Shown: piece after piece, positions 1 through 38,825 of the stretch | Layout: each line of letters begins with the position of its first letter | Position numbering within the stretch: position 1 is the stretch's first letter | Assembly: GCA_029975765.1 (NCBI GenBank) | Contig: JARKOK010000187.1 | Coordinates: 1-54,522, forward strand | From: Aggregatilineales bacterium | Lineage (GTDB): Bacteria; Chloroflexota; Anaerolineae; Aggregatilineales; Phototrophicaceae | Direction: 5' to 3' | Length of the DNA: 54,522 bases | Translations under genes and position numbers: made by a program | The notes under the pieces: model-generated | The model's database searches: none | Told to the model about the DNA's origin: nothing | Seen by the model: only the letters and a program-made list of their open reading frames with translations

Positions 1-51
1 ATTTCGATGGAAGCCGGCTTAATCGCTGCGACCTGAACGGCACCCGGCAGC

Positions 52-1464
52 CTATTGACCTTTATGTGTATCAATCCCCATTTCGGGCAGGTCTAGCTGC
101 CACCAGGTTTCCGGGTCTTTTTGCACACCGTAGCCAAAGGCATCATCCAGGTTACGTGTCAGATCATCGGCAGCCGGTACGGTGGCGATCTGCATCTGAA
201 TCAGCCGGTGAACAAAACTTTTGCCCATTTTGGAAAACGGACACACCGAAAAACAGATGCCGCAGTTCGTCCCGGCCTTCTCGTGCCAGTAGGTGCGGCA
301 TTTACGCGAGTCCTCAAACCACTCCTGATGGCCGGCCTGATTCCACGAGCCAACCGGAGTCCAACCGTGTTCAGTGTCAAAACTTAACGCGCCAGGAGGG
401 CAGGCTTCAGCGCACATTTTGCAGGTGCGTCAGAACCGCGCGATCCCGGCATCTATCGGGCGATCAGGCGCTAACGGCAGATCGGTGATGAGCTTGAACA
501 GGCGCACCATCGGCCCGTACTCCGGCGTGATGACCCGGTTCTGGCGCGATAGTTCGCCCAGCCCGCCCATGACGGCCAACGCCGGGGCAATACCCAGCCC
601 GTTCAGGGTCGCCTCACCCAATCCCTGATAACCCAACCCGCGCAGAAATTCCTGCAAACTGTTCTGGATCGTCAGGCCGCGCAGGTAGCTCAATTCGGTC
701 GTCATTTCCGCGAGTTTTGTCGGCGCGCGTTTCATCGTTTCGGTGGACATCTGGACGGCGTATACAATCACCCATTCGGCGCGGTTCGGAATCACCCGGC
801 GGGACTCATCCTCATAAGCAGTGGGGACATCCTCAAACACCAGTTCTTTGCCATCCGGGTCAACACTGTAAATCAGCCTGCGGGTGCGCTCATCCAGATG
901 GACAATACCGACGCTGGCCGCGCCCATGTGCCGCATCGCCACCTTGATGATCTGCGCGGCCACTGCCGGCGTTCCACTCCAGCGCGGGACGCCGCGTTCT
1001 TCGGGCGTTTTCGCCTGCTGCGAGCCGAGAAAACTGCGATGCATGGTGTGCTGTCCGGCAGTAAAGGCCGCGTCCAGCGCGTAATCCTTCAAGGTGTAAC
1101 CGGATACAGCGTTCAGAATTCGCTGCTGCTCGTTCTCCGCTGTAATCTGCTGCATTCGCGCCGCCTCGTCCGTACCAACCAGATGGCGCCAGCCTTCTCC
1201 GATCAGGATATTCGTTCGGGCATTCACGCGCTGGACGGCCTCCCAGTTCACGCCGGTGGTGGGTTCATCCACCTGCCGCACCCACCAGGGACGTTTGTAC
1301 ACATCACCGGCGGTTGCTGCTCCCAGCGTTTCGCCGGCCAGCACCAGCGCCCCCGCCCCGGCAGCGCCCACCACTGCGCCGGCGGCGGCAGCATTCTTTA
1401 AAAAATCACGCCGGTTGATCTGGTGTTCGTCACTCACGCGCCTGCATCCCCGCTCAGCCATCAT
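52..1464 (-). CDS. rdhA: RdhA-like reductive dehalogenase with one in-frame UGA
   Basis: This is a corrinoid/Fe-S reductive dehalogenase catalytic subunit, exported by Tat and expected to remove halogen from organohalides as a respiratory step. The N-terminus has a Tat signal (RRDFLK followed by an Ala/Gly-rich helix). The C-terminus has two ferredoxin motifs: RTCKMCAEACP, and CGICFSVCPF with an upstream Cys at DSRKC. The frame is open to the TAG at 52 except for one TGA at 430-432, immediately before RTC. RdhA proteins usually read FCRTCxxCAxxCP here, so the UGA replaces the first cluster Cys. The whole product would be about 470 residues, normal for the family. The ATG at 1462-1464 is taken as start; an in-frame TTG (1482), ATG (1461) and GTG (1437) are alternatives. 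It is the last gene after a kinase, a regulator and a small membrane protein. It may be a selenoprotein, a recent nonsense mutant, or carry a base-call error. Confidence 0.85.
430..432 (-). other. In-frame UGA in place of a [4Fe-4S] cysteine codon
   Basis: On the minus strand the reading is ...GIARF-UGA-RTCKMCAEACP..., with the frame unchanged on both sides, so this is a substitution and not a frameshift. One base (TGC or TGT to TGA) separates it from Cys. A short hairpin starts directly after the UGA: CGCAC (429-425) pairs with GTGCG (415-411) around a 9-base loop. Bacterial SECIS elements lie just 3' of the UGA, but this stem is shorter than the well-studied ones, so it only weakly supports selenocysteine. 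Confidence 0.75.
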
Positions 1465-1511: not shown

Positions 1512-1775
1512 CTAGTGATATTTATCCTGTTCTTCGGCTTCTATCCGCCGGATCACACCCGCTACCACACCGCCCAGCAGTAAAATCAGCAACAGCGCAC
1601 CCGCAAGTGTCGCCGCCTGCCATTCATATTCGCGGCGGCTTGCCAGCGTAAATTCCAGCAGCACAACCAGCACCAGCAGCCACAGACCCCATAATAGCCA
1701 TTCGTACAGCGGTTTCCGCCGGATTCTGACGGTGAAGAAGCGGGATTTATCCGGTGATTTTCTGGGCTGGCTCAT
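1512..1775 (-). CDS. Small two-helix membrane protein, possible RdhB-type anchor
   Basis: An 87-residue protein with a basic N-terminus, a first hydrophobic helix at about residues 27-46, a second at about 55-75, and a charged tail rich in Glu, Asp and Lys. Size and topology fit the small membrane proteins (RdhB) that hold reductive dehalogenases at the cytoplasmic membrane. Its place between the regulator gene and rdhA, all on the same strand, fits that role; an anchor gene upstream of the catalytic gene is known from cprBA. Sequence alone does not prove it, because RdhB proteins are very divergent. Otherwise it is an unassigned small membrane protein. Confidence 0.6.
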   Translation of the reverse strand: MSQPRKSPDKSRFFTVRIRRKPLYEWLLWGLWLLVLVVLLEFTLASRREYEWQAATLAGALLLILLLGGVVAGVIRRIEAEEQDKYH

Positions 1776-1787
1776 TATGACCGCGAC

Positions 1788-2453
1788 TCATGCTTCAATA
1801 TCCAGCAGACCTTTACGCAGTGCGTACTGCACCAGCGCCACCCGGTTATGCAGTTCCAGTTTTTCCATCAGCCGCTGGCGGTAGGTATCTACGGTTTTGG
1901 GGCTGATGATCAGTTTTTCACCGATCTCACGGCTGCTGTAACCCTGGGCGGTTAAGGTCAGCACCTCGCGTTCGCGCTCGCTCAGGCTATCCAGTTCATC
2001 CTGCGGCGCTGCCGACCGGCTGGCCTGCTGCCGGTAGTGGTCAAGCAGCACCTGCGCCGCTTCCGGGTAAAGATATGTCTTGCCCCGGTGGACCTGCCGG
2101 ATTGCATCCACCAGATCACGATCAGCCGCGCTTTTGAGGACATAGCCGGCGCCGCCCGCTTCGATCACCCGCACGATGTACTGTTTTTCGGTGTGCATCG
2201 TCAGCACCAGCACCTTTGTATCAAAATAAACGGCGGTAATATGTTCCAGGACATCCAGACCGTTCATACCGGGCATGGATAAGTCCAGCACCACCACATC
2301 CGGGGACAAATTTTTAACCTGGCGGATCGCGCTGTCGCCGTCGCCGGCTTCGCCCACAACACTCATATCCGGTTCGGCGTTCAGCAAAGCCCGCAGGCCG
2401 GCGCGCAGCACCGCATGGTCATCGGCCAGCAGAATATTTATTTTTTCCATCAC
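1788..2453 (-). CDS. NarL/FixJ-family response regulator
   Basis: A 221-residue two-domain regulator. The receiver domain (about 1-125) has the acidic pair D11/D12, the phosphorylated D57 in VVLDLSMPG, and a Lys in VLKSA. The C-terminal LuxR-type HTH (about 150-215) shows LSEREREVLTLTAQG and the recognition segment SPKTVDTYRQRLMEKL. Its start overlaps the end of the kinase gene by 4 bases (ATGA), so the two are translationally coupled and form one two-component system. Because rdhA and its putative anchor follow on the same strand, organohalide-responsive control of that locus is the simplest inference, as is common for rdh operons in Dehalococcoidia. Confidence 0.93.
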   Translation of the reverse strand: MMEKINILLADDHAVLRAGLRALLNAEPDMSVVGEAGDGDSAIRQVKNLSPDVVVLDLSMPGMNGLDVLEHITAVYFDTKVLVLTMHTEKQYIVRVIEAGGAGYVLKSAADRDLVDAIRQVHRGKTYLYPEAAQVLLDHYRQQASRSAAPQDELDSLSEREREVLTLTAQGYSSREIGEKLIISPKTVDTYRQRLMEKLELHNRVALVQYALRKGLLDIEA

Positions 2454-4108
2454 AACAGGCGCTCCTGTGCCAGCTTTACCTGAGCATAAACGCGCGTTCC
2501 CTCGCCCGCACTGGATGTGAGCCGCAGCGTCCCACCAATCAACGCCATCCGTTCCTGCATCCCCAGCAGCCCTAAGCCGCGACCGGTTGATTGTAACGTT
2601 TCTTCCAGATTAAACCCCTGGCCGTTGTCCCGGACGCAGACCTCTACCAGCTCACCCTCGCGCCGGATTTCGACCCAGACCTGGGTGGCCCGCGAATGGC
2701 GGGCGATATTGGACAGGGCTTCCTGGACGACGCGGTACACGGTCGCTTCGGCTTCGTGGGGCAAACGCACGTCGTCCATGTCCTGCGCCTGAAAATCAGT
2801 CCTGATGCCCACCTTGCGGCTGTATTCGCTGACGAACCAGTCCAGGGCGGCCACCAGTCCCAGATCATCCAGCGCCGCCGGGCGCAGATCAAGCGACAGG
2901 CGGCGGACTTCTTCCAGGGTTTGCGCCGTCAGGTCGCGCAGATCACGAACACGCTGCCGCATCGTTTCGATGTCGCCGGTGCGTTCGAGCACCTTCAACT
3001 GGACAAGCAGCGAGGTGAGCGACTGTCCGGTTTCGTCATGCAGCTCACGGCTGATGCGGCGGCGCTCCTCCTCCTGCGCCGATACCACTTTGCTGAGTAA
3101 CTGCGCCCGCACGCGTTCTTTATGTTGCAGTTCTTCCCACAGGCGGCTGTTTTCGATGGCGATGCCCAACTGGCTGCACACCGTCATCAGCAGCGTGTGC
3201 CGTTCCGCGTCCAGGCACGCGCGCCCGGTACATAATACATTCAGCACACCCAGCACTTTGCTCCGGGTGCCAATCGGCAGACAGACATAACTGGAATATC
3301 CCGCTGCCCGGCAGACCGCCGCCAGTTGGGCAGGTGCAGCCACCATGTCCATGATCAGCACCGGTTCCCCGGTTGTCGTCACCTGTGTGATCAGATCGGT
3401 AAGCGGGCTGGCAGCACTCGTGGTATCGAGCAGCTCCGGGGGCATATTCCGGTGCGCGCTAACCACCCGCTCCGCGCTGCTGTTCAGCAGCACCATCATA
3501 CCCGCCTCTGCCCCACTGATGGCAAGCACCTGTTCCAGACCGTACTCCATAATCCTGCCCGTTGTGGTATACCGGTTTGCCATCTGCGCCAGTTCAAACA
3601 GCGCCGCCAGTTCCCGATTGCGCCGGCGAAGCTGGTCATTCGATGCTTCCAGTTCGGCGCGGGAACGGGACAGGCTCTCGATCATGGCGTTGAAGGTGCT
3701 GCCCAGTTCGCCGATTTCGTCTTTCGCCCACACCGGCGCGCGCAGCGACAGATCCCCTTTTTCGACCTGCCGCGCCACACGGGTGATATGCAGAATCGGA
3801 CGGGTCAGCACCCAGATCAGCAGCGAGGCAATCACCAGCCCGGCGAAGGCCGCGAACACGGTGATGATGAATACGCCGCGCATTCCGACCAGCATGGCCT
3901 GCTCAACCCGTTCTTCACTCAGCAGGTATGAAAGCCACCCCCCTAACTCGCTGCTGACCCACCAGGCCATCGTGAAACCCAGAATGAGCAGCGGGGCAAC
4001 GACAATCCCGATAATCTTCTGGCTGAACGGCACGCGACCGGCAAAGATCCAGAACCGGCTCCAGAGATTGAGTTTCCTGGTCACATCGTGTTGAGGGCTG
4101 GCATTCAT
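2450..4108 (-). CDS. NarX/LiaS-type sensor histidine kinase (HAMP-GAF-HisKA_3-HATPase)
   Basis: A 552-residue membrane kinase. Two transmembrane helices (about 31-52 and 72-100) enclose only a very short external loop, so sensing is probably intramembrane or through the cytoplasmic GAF domain. HAMP spans about 101-153, a coiled coil about 145-170, and GAF about 175-320. The HisKA_3 box ISRELHDETGQ puts the phosphoacceptor at H357. The HATPase has the N-box EALSNIARHS, then DNGQGF and GRGLGLLGMQER. It is the first gene of the minus-strand group ending in rdhA and is coupled to the NarL regulator. The ligand cannot be told from sequence. Confidence 0.93.
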   Translation of the reverse strand: MNASPQHDVTRKLNLWSRFWIFAGRVPFSQKIIGIVVAPLLILGFTMAWWVSSELGGWLSYLLSEERVEQAMLVGMRGVFIITVFAAFAGLVIASLLIWVLTRPILHITRVARQVEKGDLSLRAPVWAKDEIGELGSTFNAMIESLSRSRAELEASNDQLRRRNRELAALFELAQMANRYTTTGRIMEYGLEQVLAISGAEAGMMVLLNSSAERVVSAHRNMPPELLDTTSAASPLTDLITQVTTTGEPVLIMDMVAAPAQLAAVCRAAGYSSYVCLPIGTRSKVLGVLNVLCTGRACLDAERHTLLMTVCSQLGIAIENSRLWEELQHKERVRAQLLSKVVSAQEEERRRISRELHDETGQSLTSLLVQLKVLERTGDIETMRQRVRDLRDLTAQTLEEVRRLSLDLRPAALDDLGLVAALDWFVSEYSRKVGIRTDFQAQDMDDVRLPHEAEATVYRVVQEALSNIARHSRATQVWVEIRREGELVEVCVRDNGQGFNLEETLQSTGRGLGLLGMQERMALIGGTLRLTSSAGEGTRVYAQVKLAQERLL

Positions 4109-4225
4109 TCCTGAGACTTTTCAACAATCCCATCCAATCGTTAGTTCATTTTACCCCGGCTGGATTGAATACAAATTACACAGGTTCTTAACGGCTTCTG
4201 CACGCCGATCTGCGATTATACCGTT

Positions 4226-4244
4226 CAGGCAGATGAACTGCCTG
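4226..4244 (+). other. Short leader hairpin
   Basis: CAGGCAG (4226-4232) pairs with CTGCCTG (4238-4244) around a 5-base loop. It lies 28 bases before the ATG of the secreted protein gene at 4273, in the divergent region between the kinase and that gene. It could be a small operator or an mRNA 5' stem. Confidence 0.35.
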
Positions 4245-4272
4245 ACTGATCTACGTAACAAGGAGTAACATC

Positions 4273-4731
4273 ATGTCGAAGAAGAAGCTGGTTGGGCTGC
4301 TGGCGGTGGCAGCTTTCTCCCTGAATGCGGTAACGGTCGCCTTCGCTCAGGATTTCGCCTGGGTGGATACCGAAGATTACGGGCGGGTGCTGGTCATCGA
4401 GGACACACGGCTCAACAAATTTGATGTCGCCGCGCCGGTAGCCATCTATTACACCTATCACAGCGTCGTTAATGACGACGCCACTGTTCAGGAGGTGCCG
4501 GATGGCATCGAACTGCTGGCAATTGACCCGGAAACCAACCAGGGGCATCTGGTGCTGGCCGCTGACCTGACGGCGCTGCAAAGCCTGATCAGCGGTGAGG
4601 TCGAAACCGTTGCCGCCGGCGGCTACAGCCTGCACTATTCATCCGGCTACTTCTGGGTGACGGCCCCGCCGGATGCAGAAGGGAAGGTATACAGCTTCAC
4701 CTGGGCGAACGAAACCTTCGCCGCCGGTTAA
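4273..4731 (+). CDS. Secreted hypothetical protein
   Basis: A 152-residue protein with a clear signal peptide (MSKKK, a hydrophobic core, and probable cleavage after AFA at about residue 25). The mature part is acidic, has no Cys, and is rich in Val and Ala with alternating polar and hydrophobic residues, suggesting a small beta-rich exported domain. I do not recognise a family. It has a good ribosome site (AAGGAG, 4259-4264), stands alone and divergent from the rdh two-component system, and is followed by a strong terminator, so it is a single-gene unit. A link to the dehalogenase locus is only positional. Confidence 0.75.
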   Translation: MSKKKLVGLLAVAAFSLNAVTVAFAQDFAWVDTEDYGRVLVIEDTRLNKFDVAAPVAIYYTYHSVVNDDATVQEVPDGIELLAIDPETNQGHLVLAADLTALQSLISGEVETVAAGGYSLHYSSGYFWVTAPPDAEGKVYSFTWANETFAAG

Positions 4732-4764
4732 ATCCTCTGGCGTTTCTCTCCCTTTTCCTCCACC

Positions 4765-4800
4765 ATCTCCCTTCTCCATCCGAGAAGGGAGATTTTGCTT
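4765..4800 (+). terminator. Rho-independent terminator after the secreted protein gene
   Basis: A perfect 12-bp stem: ATCTCCCTTCTC (4765-4776) pairs with GAGAAGGGAGAT (4782-4793) around a 5-base loop, followed by TTTGCTT. It lies 34 bases past the stop codon at 4731. Confidence 0.85.
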
Positions 4801-4834
4801 CGCCTGCGGTCACCGGTCAGTGTGAGGGTATCAA

Positions 4835-5542
4835 TCACCCGTCGCTGTCGTCCAGTTGATGATTAAAACGATAGCCGACACCGAACACAGTCAGGACATA
4901 ACGCGGCTGGCCGGGGTCGGGTTCGAGCTTGGCGCGCAGGTTACGGATATGCACATCTACCGTTCGCTCCACGTTTTCGAACATGCTCCCCTTCAGGCGT
5001 TCCAGCAGATCGGCGCGGGAAAATACCTGGCCGGGCGCGGCCATCATGATCGCCAGCAGATCAAACTCGGACGGCGTTAACTCCACCACCCGCGTGCCAG
5101 CCTTAACCAGCCGGGTGGTTTTGTCCAGCACCACATCGCCCACACGCAGCACTTTGGGCGCGGACGCTTCCTCGCTGACACGCCGCAGCACGGCCCGGAT
5201 GCGCGCCGTCAGTTCGGCCATACCAAACGGCTTGGTCACATAATCGTCCGCGCCCAGTTCCAGCCCGATCACCTTATCCGTTTCTTCCATTTTCGCTGTC
5301 AGCATAATCACCGGGGTGCTGCGCTCCTTGCGGAAATAGCGCATGAACTCGTAGCCGTCCATCTCCGGCATCATGATATCCAGCAGGATCAGATCGGGGT
5401 TTTCATGGCGCGCTACAAACAGCGCCTCACGGCCATTGCTGGCCGTCGCGGTGCGATACCCTTTCTCCATCAGGTAATCCGCAATCAGCCGTTGAACACT
5501 CAGTTTGTCGTCAACGATGAGGATGGTTTTCATGGTTGCCAT
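4835..5542 (-). CDS. OmpR/PhoB-family response regulator without an adjacent kinase
   Basis: A regulator of 235 residues from the ATG at 5542. Receiver: acidic pair D11/D12, phospho-acceptor D55 in LILLDIMMPEMDG, and KPF at the end of the receiver. The C-terminal winged helix carries LTPSEFDLLAIMM, VERTVDVHIRNLRAKLE and YRFN. An upstream in-frame ATG at 5590 would add 16 residues that are unlike the family, so the shorter start is preferred; ATG 5533 is also possible. It lies downstream of marR on the same strand as the export operon. No kinase gene is nearby, so its partner is encoded elsewhere. It probably regulates the exporter. Confidence 0.92.
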   Translation of the reverse strand: MATMKTILIVDDKLSVQRLIADYLMEKGYRTATASNGREALFVARHENPDLILLDIMMPEMDGYEFMRYFRKERSTPVIMLTAKMEETDKVIGLELGADDYVTKPFGMAELTARIRAVLRRVSEEASAPKVLRVGDVVLDKTTRLVKAGTRVVELTPSEFDLLAIMMAAPGQVFSRADLLERLKGSMFENVERTVDVHIRNLRAKLEPDPGQPRYVLTVFGVGYRFNHQLDDSDG

Positions 5543-5586
5543 TCTTTCGTATCGCACCCACTGCCCGACACCTGACAGCCCGGAAC

Positions 5587-6045
5587 TCACCGGGATGTGG
5601 ATTCAGCCATGCTGCCCTGAAGCTGCGTCAGAACGTGGAGGAAGGTCATGTAGTCGGTGCGCTCGAACAGACTGCCCAGCTTTTGTTGAATCTGACGCTC
5701 CGTTTCAAGCACCTGATGGTACAGTTCCCAGCCCTTTTCGGTCAGGAAAATATGCACCGCCCGCCGGTCAGACCGGTCGGGCTGGCGCAAAATCAGCCCT
5801 TTTTCCTGAAGCCGGTCGAGCGTGGGCGTAAACGAGGTGGCCGCCCGGCCAACGGCGTGTGCCAGTTCGGAAGCGTGGATCCCGTCCTGTTCGTACAGGG
5901 CTTGCAGGATATACCACTCAATGACGGTCAGGCCGAGTGGTTCAACACTCTGAATGTAAATCTGGTCGAGGCGGCGCCGGGCAATTTCGAGATTGCACCA
6001 CAGTGACCCATTAAACCGGAGCGAATGGTTTTGGTGATGGTTCAT
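5587..6045 (-). CDS. MarR-family transcriptional regulator
   Basis: A winged-helix repressor-type protein of about 152 residues from the ATG at 6045; longer in-frame starts exist up to 6114. The HTH is visible in GIHASELAHAVGRAATSFTPTLDRLQEKGLI (described by its ends, GIHASELAH and LDRLQEKGL), followed by the wing RQPDRSDRRAVHIFLTEKG. MarR proteins usually sense aromatic or toxic small molecules and repress efflux genes. It is placed after the SH3 protein at the end of a MacB-type export operon, which fits a local repressor. Candidate half-sites lie upstream of the operon at 13572-13598. Confidence 0.9.
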   Translation of the reverse strand: MNHHQNHSLRFNGSLWCNLEIARRRLDQIYIQSVEPLGLTVIEWYILQALYEQDGIHASELAHAVGRAATSFTPTLDRLQEKGLILRQPDRSDRRAVHIFLTEKGWELYHQVLETERQIQQKLGSLFERTDYMTFLHVLTQLQGSMAESTSR

Positions 6046-6153
6046 GGCATGTATCCTGTCTCTCATAGCCTGATGGTAGAACCCGCTGTCGGGTTCGGAT
6101 GACCTGGGATTCATGGCGGCGCGCTGCCGCCTGGTCGTGTATCGTCTTTATGA

Positions 6154-34668: not shown

Positions 34669-36390
34669 TTAGTGGCTGACGTGCAGTAACTCGTGCGCTT
34701 TCTCGCTGCCCGGTTCGCCCAGAAAATCCTGGTATAGCCGTTGAATCGCCGAGTTCTTATGCGACTTACGAACGGTTTGCCAGCCATCAATCAGATACAG
34801 CCCCTTGATACGCTGCTCGATGACTTCCATTCGTTCCTGGCTGTAGGGCTGGCCGCCGCCGTTCACGCAGCCGCCGGGGCAGGCCATGATTTCGATGACA
34901 TCGTATTGCGCGGTGCCTTTCTCGATGTTCTCCAGAATTTTGCGGGCGTTCCCCAGACCGGACGCCGCCGCGACCCGGACAGTGCGGCCATTCAGTTGAA
35001 TGCTGGCTTCCCGCACACCGGCCATACCGCGCACCGCCGTAAAGTTCACGTCCTCCAGTTCCTTGCCGGTCACCGACTCATAGACTGTTCGCAGCGCCGC
35101 TTCCAGCACGCCGCCCGACGCGCCAAAAATAACACCCGCGCCGGTGGATTCCCCCAGTGGGTCATCAAAGCCTTCGTCCGGCATGTGCCGCAGGTCAATC
35201 CCGCTTTCCTTCAGCATCTTCGCCAGTTCGCGGGTGGTAATCACATAGTCCACGTCCGCCAGATCGTTAGCGCGGTGTTCAGGCAGCGCGGCCTCGTACT
35301 TCTTGGCGATACACGGCATAACTGAAACCATCACCAGGTCTTTTGGCTCAATGCCCATCTTGCTGGCATAGTAGGATTTGCTGACCGCGCCGATCATCTG
35401 CTGCGGTGATTTACACGACGACGGCATGTAGTTCAGGCTGGGGAAATGATGTTTGAGGAAATTGATCCAGCCGGGGCAGCACGAGGTCAGAATCGGCAGA
35501 TTCTCGTTTTTGGTCACACGCTCGATGATCTCATGCGCTTCCTCGACCACTGTCAGATCAGCGCCGAAGGTGGTATCAAACACGGCGTTGAAACCCAGGC
35601 GGCGCAGGCCGGCCACCAGTTTGCCGGTCACCGGCTGGCCGGGCGGCAGGCCGAATTCTTCACCGATGGCGACCCGCACCGCCGGCGCCACCTGTACCAC
35701 GACAATCTTGGTTTTATCAAACAGCGCGTTCCACGTTTCCTGAATGTACCCTACCCCCGTCAGGGCGGCGGTCGGACACACGCTCACACACTGGCCGCAG
35801 TACACACAACTGGAATCCACCAGCGGCTGCATTTCCGCCGGCGCGACCACCGCATCGAAACCCCGGCCAAACGCGGTCAGCGCACCAACGGTCTGCACCT
35901 GATTGCACATCGTCTCGCACCGGCGGCACATGATGCATTTATTCGGATCACGTTTCAGCGCACCGCTGGTTTTGTCAACCGGGAAATCGTACCGTTCCCC
36001 CTGCTGGTAGGCCTGGAAGTTGATACCGAATTCCCAGGCCAGTTTTTGCAGTTCGCAGTCGGTGGACTTCGCGCATACCAGGCAGTCCGCCGGATGGTTG
36101 GACAGCATCAGTTGTAACAGCTTGCGCCGCGCCGCCAGCACGCGCCGGGAATTGGTGGTGATGTTCATGCCTTCCGTCACCGGTGTCGCGCAGGAGGGCG
36201 CGAGATTCCGCCGCCCGTCCACCTCGACCACACACATCCGGCACGACGCTACCTGATTGACCATCCTGAAGCGGCTGAGGTCAAGGTGGCACAGGGTTGG
36301 AATATGAATATGCGTTTGCCGTGCCGCTTCCAGAATAGTGGTGCCTTCGGCCACACTCACCGGCTGGTTATCAATAATGACATTGACCAT
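34669..36390 (-). CDS. hydA: [FeFe] hydrogenase catalytic subunit (HydA)
   Basis: 573 residues from ATG 36390, which has GAGG upstream. Order: N-terminal [2Fe-2S] domain (Cys in PTLCHL, CRMC and SCATP), the His-Cys [4Fe-4S] motif HPADCLVCAKSTDC, two [4Fe-4S] motifs (CIMCRRCETMCN; CVYCGQCVSVCP), and the H-cluster with TSCCPGW, MPCIAKKYE and MACPGGCVNGGGQP. All H-cluster Cys are kept. This is the trimeric, probably electron-bifurcating type that couples NADH and ferredoxin to H2. Direction in the cell is open: H2 release in fermentation, or H2 uptake feeding respiration. It overlaps nothing but lies 10 bases from the hydB gene. Maturases HydE, HydF and HydG are not in the window. Confidence 0.96.
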   Translation of the reverse strand: MVNVIIDNQPVSVAEGTTILEAARQTHIHIPTLCHLDLSRFRMVNQVASCRMCVVEVDGRRNLAPSCATPVTEGMNITTNSRRVLAARRKLLQLMLSNHPADCLVCAKSTDCELQKLAWEFGINFQAYQQGERYDFPVDKTSGALKRDPNKCIMCRRCETMCNQVQTVGALTAFGRGFDAVVAPAEMQPLVDSSCVYCGQCVSVCPTAALTGVGYIQETWNALFDKTKIVVVQVAPAVRVAIGEEFGLPPGQPVTGKLVAGLRRLGFNAVFDTTFGADLTVVEEAHEIIERVTKNENLPILTSCCPGWINFLKHHFPSLNYMPSSCKSPQQMIGAVSKSYYASKMGIEPKDLVMVSVMPCIAKKYEAALPEHRANDLADVDYVITTRELAKMLKESGIDLRHMPDEGFDDPLGESTGAGVIFGASGGVLEAALRTVYESVTGKELEDVNFTAVRGMAGVREASIQLNGRTVRVAAASGLGNARKILENIEKGTAQYDVIEIMACPGGCVNGGGQPYSQERMEVIEQRIKGLYLIDGWQTVRKSHKNSAIQRLYQDFLGEPGSEKAHELLHVSH

Positions 36391-36400
36391 GTTGGCTACC

Positions 36401-38281
36401 TCAGTTATTGCTAATGGCTTTGAACTTGCACTTGGCCTTGCAGGCCCCACACTTGATGCAGCGCATCTGGTCAATGGTGTGCAGTTGTTTGACAGTGCCG
36501 GAAATGGCATCCACCGGGCAGACACGGGCGCAGGCCGTGCAGCCGATACATTTTTCGGCGTTGATCTGGTAGCGCAGCATCTTCTCGCACGCGCCCGCCG
36601 GGCAGCGGTGTTCCTTCACGTGCGCTTCGTACTCGTCCCAGAAGTATTTCATCGTGCTTAAAACCGGGTTGGGCGCGGTTTGCCCCAGGCCGCACAGCGC
36701 CGTATCGGAGATCGTTTCGGACAGCTCGCGCAGTTCGACCAGATCGGCCTCGGTGCCCCGGCCTTCGGTGATATTCACCAGAATTTCATACAGGCGTTTC
36801 GTACCCACCCGGCACGGCAGGCAGCGCCCGCAGGACTCGTCCACTGAAAATTCCAGGTAGTACCGGGCGAACTTCACCATACAGGTGGCGTCGCTCAGGA
36901 CGATCATGCCGCCCGATCCCATCATCGAGCCGATGGATGCCAGCGACTCGTAGTCAATCGGCACATCCAGAAACTGGCCGGGGATGCAGCCGCCCGACGG
37001 GCCGCCGGTCTGCACCGCTTTGAACCGCGCATCACCCTTGATACCGCCGCCGATGTCATAGATGATCTCGCGCAGCGTCGTGCCCATCGGCACTTCCACC
37101 AGGCCGATGTTGTTCACCTGCCCCGCCAGCGCGAACACTTTGGTGCCTTTGGACGTTTGCGTGCCAATCGCGCTGTACCAGTCCGCCCCGCGCGTGAAGA
37201 TCACCGGCACGTTTGCCAGCGTTTCCACGTTGTTGACAATCGTCGGGCGGCCCCACAGGCCGCTCTGCGCCGGGAACGGCGGTTTGGTGGTCGGCTCGCC
37301 GCGTTCGCCCTGCATCGAGTGGATCAGCGCGGTTTCTTCGCCGCAGACAAACGCGCCCGCGCCCAGCCGAATATCAACATCAAAATCGAACCCCGACCCC
37401 AGGATATTTTTACCCAGCAGGCCAAGTTCACGCGCCTCTTTGATCGCCAGCCGCAGCCGGTCTACCGCCAGCGGGTATTCCGCCCGGATGTAGACATAGC
37501 CCTGGTTCGCGCCGATGGCGTATCCGGCAATCGCCATGCCTTCGATCACCGTGTGCGCGTCCCCTTCCATGATCGAACGATCCATGAACGCGCCGGGGTC
37601 GCCTTCGTCAGCGTTGCAGATGACGAACTTCTCCGGCGACTGATACTGCCGCGCGAATTCCCACTTTTTGCCGGCGGAAAAACCCGCGCCGCCGCGCCCG
37701 CGCAGGCCGGAGCGTTTCATTTCCTCGATGACCATTTCCGGCGTCATCTCGGCCAGCACTTTGCCCAAAGCCTGATAACCTTCGACGGCGATGTACTCCC
37801 GGATGTCTTCCGGGTTGATCAGACCGGAGTGGCGTAAGGCGATGCGCTGCTGCGGCTGGTAGAACGGTATATCGTGCTGCGCCGCGATTTTTTCCTTCAG
37901 CACCGGGTCCAGATACAGCAGGCGCTCGACCCGGCGGTTATCGAGGATGTGTTCCTCAAAAATCTCGGTGGCGTCTTCCGGTTTCACCTGGACGTAAAAC
38001 ACGTCATCCGGGTAGATTTTGACAATCGGGCCTTGTTCGCAGAAACCGAAACAGCCCGAAATCGTCGCCTGAATGGTATCGCTCAGGCCATTCTTCTCGA
38101 TAAGCGCCTGGAAATTCGCCACAAGCTGCTGGCTCTCGGAGGCATGGCAGCCCGTCCCGCCGCAGACCAGAATCGCCCGTTCCGAAGTCGGCAGGTCATG
38201 TCCGTTCAGGCGGAGGTTCAGCAGTGGGCGAAACTGCTGGTAGGTATCCAGTAGCTGCCGGTAAGACTTAATCCTGGGCAT
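36401..38281 (-). CDS. hydB: NuoF-like flavoprotein subunit of the hydrogenase (HydB)
   Basis: 626 residues from ATG 38281, preceded by AAGGAAGAAGG and overlapping the hydC gene by 14 bases. An N-terminal thioredoxin-like [2Fe-2S] domain (CGGTGCHASES ... CFGFCEQGP) is followed by the FMN/NAD(H)-binding NuoF core (GRGGAGFSAGKKW; CNADEGDPGAFMDR), a SLBB part, the [4Fe-4S] motif ESCGRCLPCR, and two C-terminal ferredoxin motifs (CIGCTACARVCP; CIKCGACKAKC). This is where NADH and ferredoxin electrons are thought to split or join. Confidence 0.95.
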   Translation of the reverse strand: MPRIKSYRQLLDTYQQFRPLLNLRLNGHDLPTSERAILVCGGTGCHASESQQLVANFQALIEKNGLSDTIQATISGCFGFCEQGPIVKIYPDDVFYVQVKPEDATEIFEEHILDNRRVERLLYLDPVLKEKIAAQHDIPFYQPQQRIALRHSGLINPEDIREYIAVEGYQALGKVLAEMTPEMVIEEMKRSGLRGRGGAGFSAGKKWEFARQYQSPEKFVICNADEGDPGAFMDRSIMEGDAHTVIEGMAIAGYAIGANQGYVYIRAEYPLAVDRLRLAIKEARELGLLGKNILGSGFDFDVDIRLGAGAFVCGEETALIHSMQGERGEPTTKPPFPAQSGLWGRPTIVNNVETLANVPVIFTRGADWYSAIGTQTSKGTKVFALAGQVNNIGLVEVPMGTTLREIIYDIGGGIKGDARFKAVQTGGPSGGCIPGQFLDVPIDYESLASIGSMMGSGGMIVLSDATCMVKFARYYLEFSVDESCGRCLPCRVGTKRLYEILVNITEGRGTEADLVELRELSETISDTALCGLGQTAPNPVLSTMKYFWDEYEAHVKEHRCPAGACEKMLRYQINAEKCIGCTACARVCPVDAISGTVKQLHTIDQMRCIKCGACKAKCKFKAISNN

Positions 38282-38825
38282 GGTTGCCTTCTTCCTTGAC
38301 GTTCGCTTCGACCAGATAGTGTTCCAGAATTTCCTGAACCTTCTCCGGTACGACTTTGCCATACACTTTGTCGTTGACGGTGACTACCGGCGCGAGGCCG
38401 CACGCGCCCACACAGCGCAAACTCTCAATGGAGAACTGGCCGTCTGGTGTCACTTCGCCGGACCTGATGTTGAGGATGCGCTCAAATTCCTGCAAGACTT
38501 TGTCCGCGCCGTTGACATAACAGGCCGTGCCGAGGCACACGTTGATCTGCACCTCACCTTTGGGGGTGGTGGTGAAGTAGTTGTAGAAGCTGATAACGCC
38601 CGATACCTCCGCGTGGGAGATGTTGTATTTCCGGGCGATATGACGCTGGACTTCCGCCGGCAGGTAACCAAAGATCCCCTGCGCCTGGTGCAGCGTCTGG
38701 ATCAGGGTTTCCTTACGGCGCGGGTTATCCGGGACGATATGCAGTGCTGCGATATAAGCGTCAAGCTGCTCGTAACGGTCGAGCGCCAACTGCTTTCCAG
38801 GGCATTCCTGGTGGGTACAGGTCAT
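38268..38825 (-). CDS. hydC: NuoE-like [2Fe-2S] subunit of the hydrogenase (HydC)
   Basis: 185 residues. The helical N-terminal part is followed by the thioredoxin-like [2Fe-2S] domain with CLGTACYVNG and RCVGACGLAP. It is the first gene of the hydCBA order and the first to be transcribed, with a good ribosome site (AGGAGAG). It passes electrons between the flavoprotein and the catalytic subunit. Regulation by Rex is suggested by the site at 39015-39032. Confidence 0.94.
   Translation of the reverse strand: MTCTHQECPGKQLALDRYEQLDAYIAALHIVPDNPRRKETLIQTLHQAQGIFGYLPAEVQRHIARKYNISHAEVSGVISFYNYFTTTPKGEVQINVCLGTACYVNGADKVLQEFERILNIRSGEVTPDGQFSIESLRCVGACGLAPVVTVNDKVYGKVVPEKVQEILEHYLVEANVKEEGNHAQD

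Follow-up and report, generated by a model that had tools for sequence, protein, structure and literature searches.

A TGA codon at a conserved iron–sulfur cysteine of a Chloroflexota reductive dehalogenase gene: probably a recent nonsense mutation, in an operon that seems truncated

The window, a 54,522-nucleotide stretch of contig C549 in the draft genome of an Aggregatilineales bacterium, begins with a respiratory-type reductive dehalogenase gene, rdhA1 (52..1464, minus strand), in which a single TGA (430..432, minus) occupies the column of the first [4Fe-4S] cysteine. We believe that this TGA is probably a fresh and real nonsense mutation in rdhA1 of a truncated rdh operon, and put the probability of this reading at roughly 0.62. 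The gene would have been intact until very recently, the TGA having arisen by one transversion in a TGC or TGT cysteine codon. Translation would most likely end at the UGA to leave a 344-residue Tat-exported fragment, predicted to be inactive because it contains neither iron–sulfur motif. rdhA1 would thus stand at the cut end of its operon, with the Zn ribbon, rdhA2, the second small two-hydrophobic-stretch (2TM) protein, the RdhC-like flavoprotein, and ApbE apparently absent from the genome, and we propose that the loss of these partner genes removed selection on rdhA1. We infer that termination at this UGA really happens, that the operon was lost before the stop arose, and that the TGA is present in the organism itself and did not enter as an error in the consensus.

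rdhA1 runs from an ATG at 1464 to a TAG ending at 52 and has 470 sense codons, the TGA counted, giving a continuous 470-residue protein if the TGA is read as a residue. The TGA is the sole in-frame stop inside the gene, at codon 345 counted from the ATG (residue 352 of P0001), and its surroundings read DAGIARF-UGA-RTCKMCAEACPPGA. With the TGA taken as a residue, the TIGR02486 (RDH) profile scores 266.5 bits against a cut-off of 160.35 and the PF13486 domain 108.7 bits, and a twin-arginine motif (RRDFLK) lies near the N-terminus, where the Tat-type profile PF10399 matches weakly, under its cut-off. The original prediction of a TGA interrupting an otherwise open RdhA frame, complete with Tat signal, corrinoid part, and ferredoxin motifs, is therefore borne out in its elements; the strand, on which it was silent, is minus.

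Compared with Sulfurospirillum PceA (PDB 4uqu), also a TIGR02486 protein, rdhA1 has the same Tat signal, corrinoid domain, and ferredoxin motifs apart from one cysteine, and keeps all three residues aligned with PceA Tyr246, Asn272, and Arg305, the catalytic Tyr, Asn, and Arg of that enzyme. The two differ in that one Fe–S cysteine codon, the counterpart of PceA Cys329 (4uqu chain numbering), is TGA in rdhA1, which departs at 430–432 from the uninterrupted frame of an RdhA and has seven cysteine codons plus the TGA in place of the eight cysteines that serve two [4Fe-4S] clusters. The 5′ open part (433..1464, minus; 344 codons) contains the Tat signal and the corrinoid-binding part and would be the whole product, devoid of both Fe–S motifs, if the TGA terminates. 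The 3′ open part (52..429, minus) carries the other seven Fe–S cysteines, in frame and conserved, and its first ATG is at 417–415. The closest homologue is 65% identical, the highest value among the homologues found; there were no relatives among viral contigs, and plasmid matches reached at most about 36% identity.

Homologues were drawn from 300 related genomes and 400 genomes of the phylum (~700 in all), together with a wider collection of genome contigs. Every homologue spanning the TGA column has cysteine there, in an FC..C..CA..CP motif or a near variant, so the TGA does lie, as had been claimed, exactly at the first cysteine of FCRTCxxCAxxCP. Over 74 distinct sites the column is TGC in 57, TGT in 16, and TGA in 1, that is, 73 cysteine codons against rdhA1 alone. 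This is the alignment of UGA with cysteine that is looked for in selenoproteins, and no second homologue with UGA at the same column, which the original prediction had proposed to seek, was found among these sites. Zhang et al. (2005) ask for at least two TGA-bearing sequences before naming a new selenoprotein family, since a lone case may be a sequencing error (PMC1088965), and rdhA1 is such a lone case. Stops occur elsewhere in other homologues, at the C-terminus in the G139 paralogue, L089, L094, and L038, at the alignment end in L067, and as a TAG in L023. The last is a metagenome-assembled rdhA on a Bacillota contig (coverage ~1.2) whose lone in-frame TAG falls on a conserved non-cysteine site, and illustrates how genes of this kind show breakage or error as background.

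Upstream of rdhA1 the rdh operon matches that of relatives. An 87-residue protein with two hydrophobic stretches (1512..1775, minus), without a confident Pfam match, is a putative small membrane partner whose position upstream of rdhA1 is kept in relatives (L053, L055, and L058 have equivalents by position). It is preceded by a LuxR-type response regulator (1788..2453, minus; Response_reg and GerE), 60–70% identical to its positional counterpart in the rdh operons of relatives, and by a HAMP-GAF histidine kinase (2450..4108, minus), 49–55% identical over its full length to the kinase of those operons. The rdhA1 group of Anaerolineales-type Chloroflexi (L053–L060), with which the gene forms one clade (100/100 support), has the same kinase, regulator, and 2TM genes upstream. 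In these relatives, however, the operon reads HK-RR-2TM-rdhA1-Zn ribbon-rdhA2-2TM-RdhC-like (FMN_bind/Fer4_5)-ApbE, whereas the window has the first four genes in that order and nothing past rdhA1. In L053, L055, and L058 the small Zn-ribbon protein sits between the two rdhA genes, and the ApbE flavin transferase follows the RdhC-like gene. The bin contains no second rdhA, and its best match to the RdhC-like protein is partial, at 38% over ~129 residues.

The contig itself breaks within the 3′ end of rdhA1, where positions 1..141 are shared exactly with another contig of the bin, C368, at its end (the end of L071). An overlap of exactly 141 bases suggests that the assembly used 141-base k-mers and that its graph branches here, and we read it as an assembly-graph break; the other branch is absent from the bin. 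Past the overlap, C368 has, in place of the remaining rdh operon, a short transposase-like N-terminus, which matches an annotated transposase weakly (51% over 35 residues, E = 0.03). On L071 a PKD/SH3-domain frame (4099–5961) runs into this transposase-like N-terminus (5877–6134; MEKQRRQYRAEFREEALRVWKSSGKSAVEVEQD), a junction that looks like a rearrangement scar. The rdh operon thus seems to be cut on the 3′ side of rdhA1, as judged from a binned draft and a contig break rather than from contiguous sequence (5.97 Mb in 594 contigs; 95.7% complete, 6.65% contamination). Those genes of the window that were scanned besides rdhA1 look intact. Among the window's genes is also an [FeFe]-hydrogenase set (34669–38825, minus), composed of HydA-like (34669–36525), NuoF-like with Fer4 (36401–38362), and NuoE-like (38268–38825) genes, as in electron-bifurcating hydrogenases.

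The lesion appears to be young, because the terminal branch of rdhA1 is short (0.28 changes per site; the path from that fork to G139_L053a measures ~0.42) and conservation continues past the TGA, with identity to the rdhA1 group of 64–72% after it versus 59–64% before it. No second lesion was found in rdhA1. At otherwise invariant columns the gene has 4 changes versus 0–2 in the other rows (the exception being the distant L022, with 14), a modest excess. The stop is thus recent, or an error.

The latter, in which the organism's codon is TGC or TGT and the TGA is a consensus or assembly artefact or a minority strain variant, we regard as unlikely though by no means far-fetched. It would account for a lone TGA in an otherwise intact and constrained gene, which moreover contains the contig break and its implied branching, in a metagenome-type assembly of 594 contigs with 6.65% contamination; L023, likewise metagenome-assembled, offers a similar lone stop, and it is for this reason that Zhang et al. 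(2005) treat cases known from one sequence as no more than candidates (PMC1088965). Errors are, however, not rife in the window, since its other scanned genes look intact, and the TGA site is 290 bases away from the 141-base overlap.

The host could, in principle, make selenocysteine. Its genome contains a tRNA-Sec with a UCA anticodon as well as SelA (541.6 bits), SelB (365.5 bits), and SelD (358 bits), so the absence of all sel genes, which had been put forward as grounds for dismissing selenocysteine, is an argument that does not apply here. In this genome selD is a selenoprotein gene in its own right, with an in-frame TGA (CAG-UGA-ASKLG, Sec being U; L074, G000:C448, at ~2399–2401 of the locus, minus) followed by a textbook SECIS hairpin of −21.8 kcal/mol, and makes a handy positive control for the phylum. 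It is the only Sec gene confirmed in the genome, because the formate dehydrogenase alpha genes have no internal stops.

A bacterial SECIS for rdhA1 would have to sit at 372..429 (minus), and none was found there. The test was a scripted version of the published bSECIS model, which calls for an apical loop of 3–9 nt, an upper stem of at least 4 bp, a G at loop position 1 or 2, a distance of 16–37 nt from the UGA, and a free energy of at most −7.5 kcal/mol (PMC13188914). Four out of four positive controls pass (E. coli fdhF, fdnG, and fdoG, and selD of this genome), with G[G/U] loops 18–20 nt from the UGA, while the search for a SECIS after the rdhA1 UGA, one of the checks originally suggested, returns zero candidates. 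The filter is lenient, because 48% of arbitrary window TGAs pass it (n = 1,869; 28% with the G[G/U] pattern); rdhA1 fails nonetheless. With the stem relaxed to 3 bp, all structures obtained lack a G[G/U] loop, the best of them having the loop UGCCCUCCU, and the free fold of 64 nt from the codon preceding the TGA does not surpass that of shuffled sequences (z = +0.2).

Several structures near the TGA were considered and set aside as SECIS elements. The large one after it has an upper stem of just 3 bp and no G[G/U] loop, and the hairpin at the UGA itself (CGCAC/GUGCG) places its loop ~5 nt from the codon with no G in loop positions 1–2. By a looser, earlier hairpin score, rdhA1 reaches −10.7, in the mid-range of arbitrary TGAs (31% equal or better), and several cysteine homologues equal or exceed it. 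An Rfam search gave no match at or around the rdhA1 TGA, a result without sensitivity here because the selD control was missed too.

A selenoprotein RdhA, in which the UGA encodes Sec, a selenolate is a ligand of the first ferredoxin-type [4Fe-4S] cluster, and the SECIS is non-canonical, is in our view improbable. It would fit the complete sel set, the Sec-containing selD, and a UGA at a universally conserved cysteine with the frame intact on both sides, and a 2026 review states that some putative bSECIS elements depart from the model and that ~20% of selenoprotein families are predicted to bind ligands, mostly metals including Fe–S clusters (PMC13188914). Like the bacterial selenoproteins of that review whose Sec is metal- or cluster-related, rdhA1 has an in-frame UGA at a conserved cysteine of a redox protein in a host with Sec machinery; unlike them, it has neither a SECIS nor a second UGA-bearing homologue. 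Against Sec stand the model that all four true positives pass and rdhA1 does not, the absence of UGA from every homologue, and the truncation of the operon. Cys-to-Sec changes have, in addition, been described for catalytic redox-active cysteines (PMC1794560) and not for structural cluster ligands, the same review of the prokaryotic selenoproteome makes no mention of dehalogenases (PMC13188914), and the literature searched contained no report of a Sec-containing RdhA. Were the UGA decoded, rdhA1 would be, within the reach of that search, the first reductive dehalogenase reported to contain Sec, and would provide a natural selenolate-ligated ferredoxin-type cluster.

Still less credible is decoding of the UGA as cysteine or another residue by a suppressor tRNA, or a split gene restarting at the in-frame ATG 12 bases past the TGA (417–415; a 121-residue ORF), as a pattern scan for UCA-anticodon tRNA-like genes gave only the tRNA-Sec (a tRNA without the T-arm consensus used in the pattern would escape), no Shine–Dalgarno-like motif precedes that ATG, and the restarted product would lack the first two cysteines of the motif. 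The same scan agrees with the view that the genetic code has not changed in general.

How surprising, then, is a stop on an Fe–S cysteine? Of the 151 single-base changes that could make a stop in rdhA1, 8 (5.3%) fall on the eight Fe–S cysteines, or 4.0% with transitions weighted 2:1; among the changes that make TGA the share is 8 of 33 (24%; 17% weighted). The position of the TGA is accordingly a 5% to 24% event, suggestive but not improbable, and not strong evidence when taken alone. A plain nonsense change is compatible with chance because 5% of all stop-making changes, or 24% of those making TGA, strike an Fe–S cysteine, and a random nonsense hit at precisely such a codon is, as had been allowed for at the outset, possible.

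Weighing the evidence as a whole, we find a nonsense mutation to be the best reading of the sequence, with the absent SECIS, the lack of UGA homologues, the missing rdhA2 and RdhC-like genes, the transposase-like N-terminus, and the short branch counting for it. The fall of the TGA on one of only eight Fe–S cysteine codons, the complete Sec machinery, a selD that is itself a Sec gene, and the lack of a second lesion count against it. Of the two options originally left open, selenocysteine and nonsense, the latter is the better supported, by the missing SECIS, the homologues without UGA, and the 3′ truncation of the operon, although the sel genes are all present.

A complete sel set together with a UGA at a conserved cysteine is insufficient to call a selenoprotein: the SECIS, a second UGA-bearing homologue, and the operon context all indicate a broken gene in this case. 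The finding also suggests that a reductive dehalogenation operon has been lost in this lineage and kept in its relatives.
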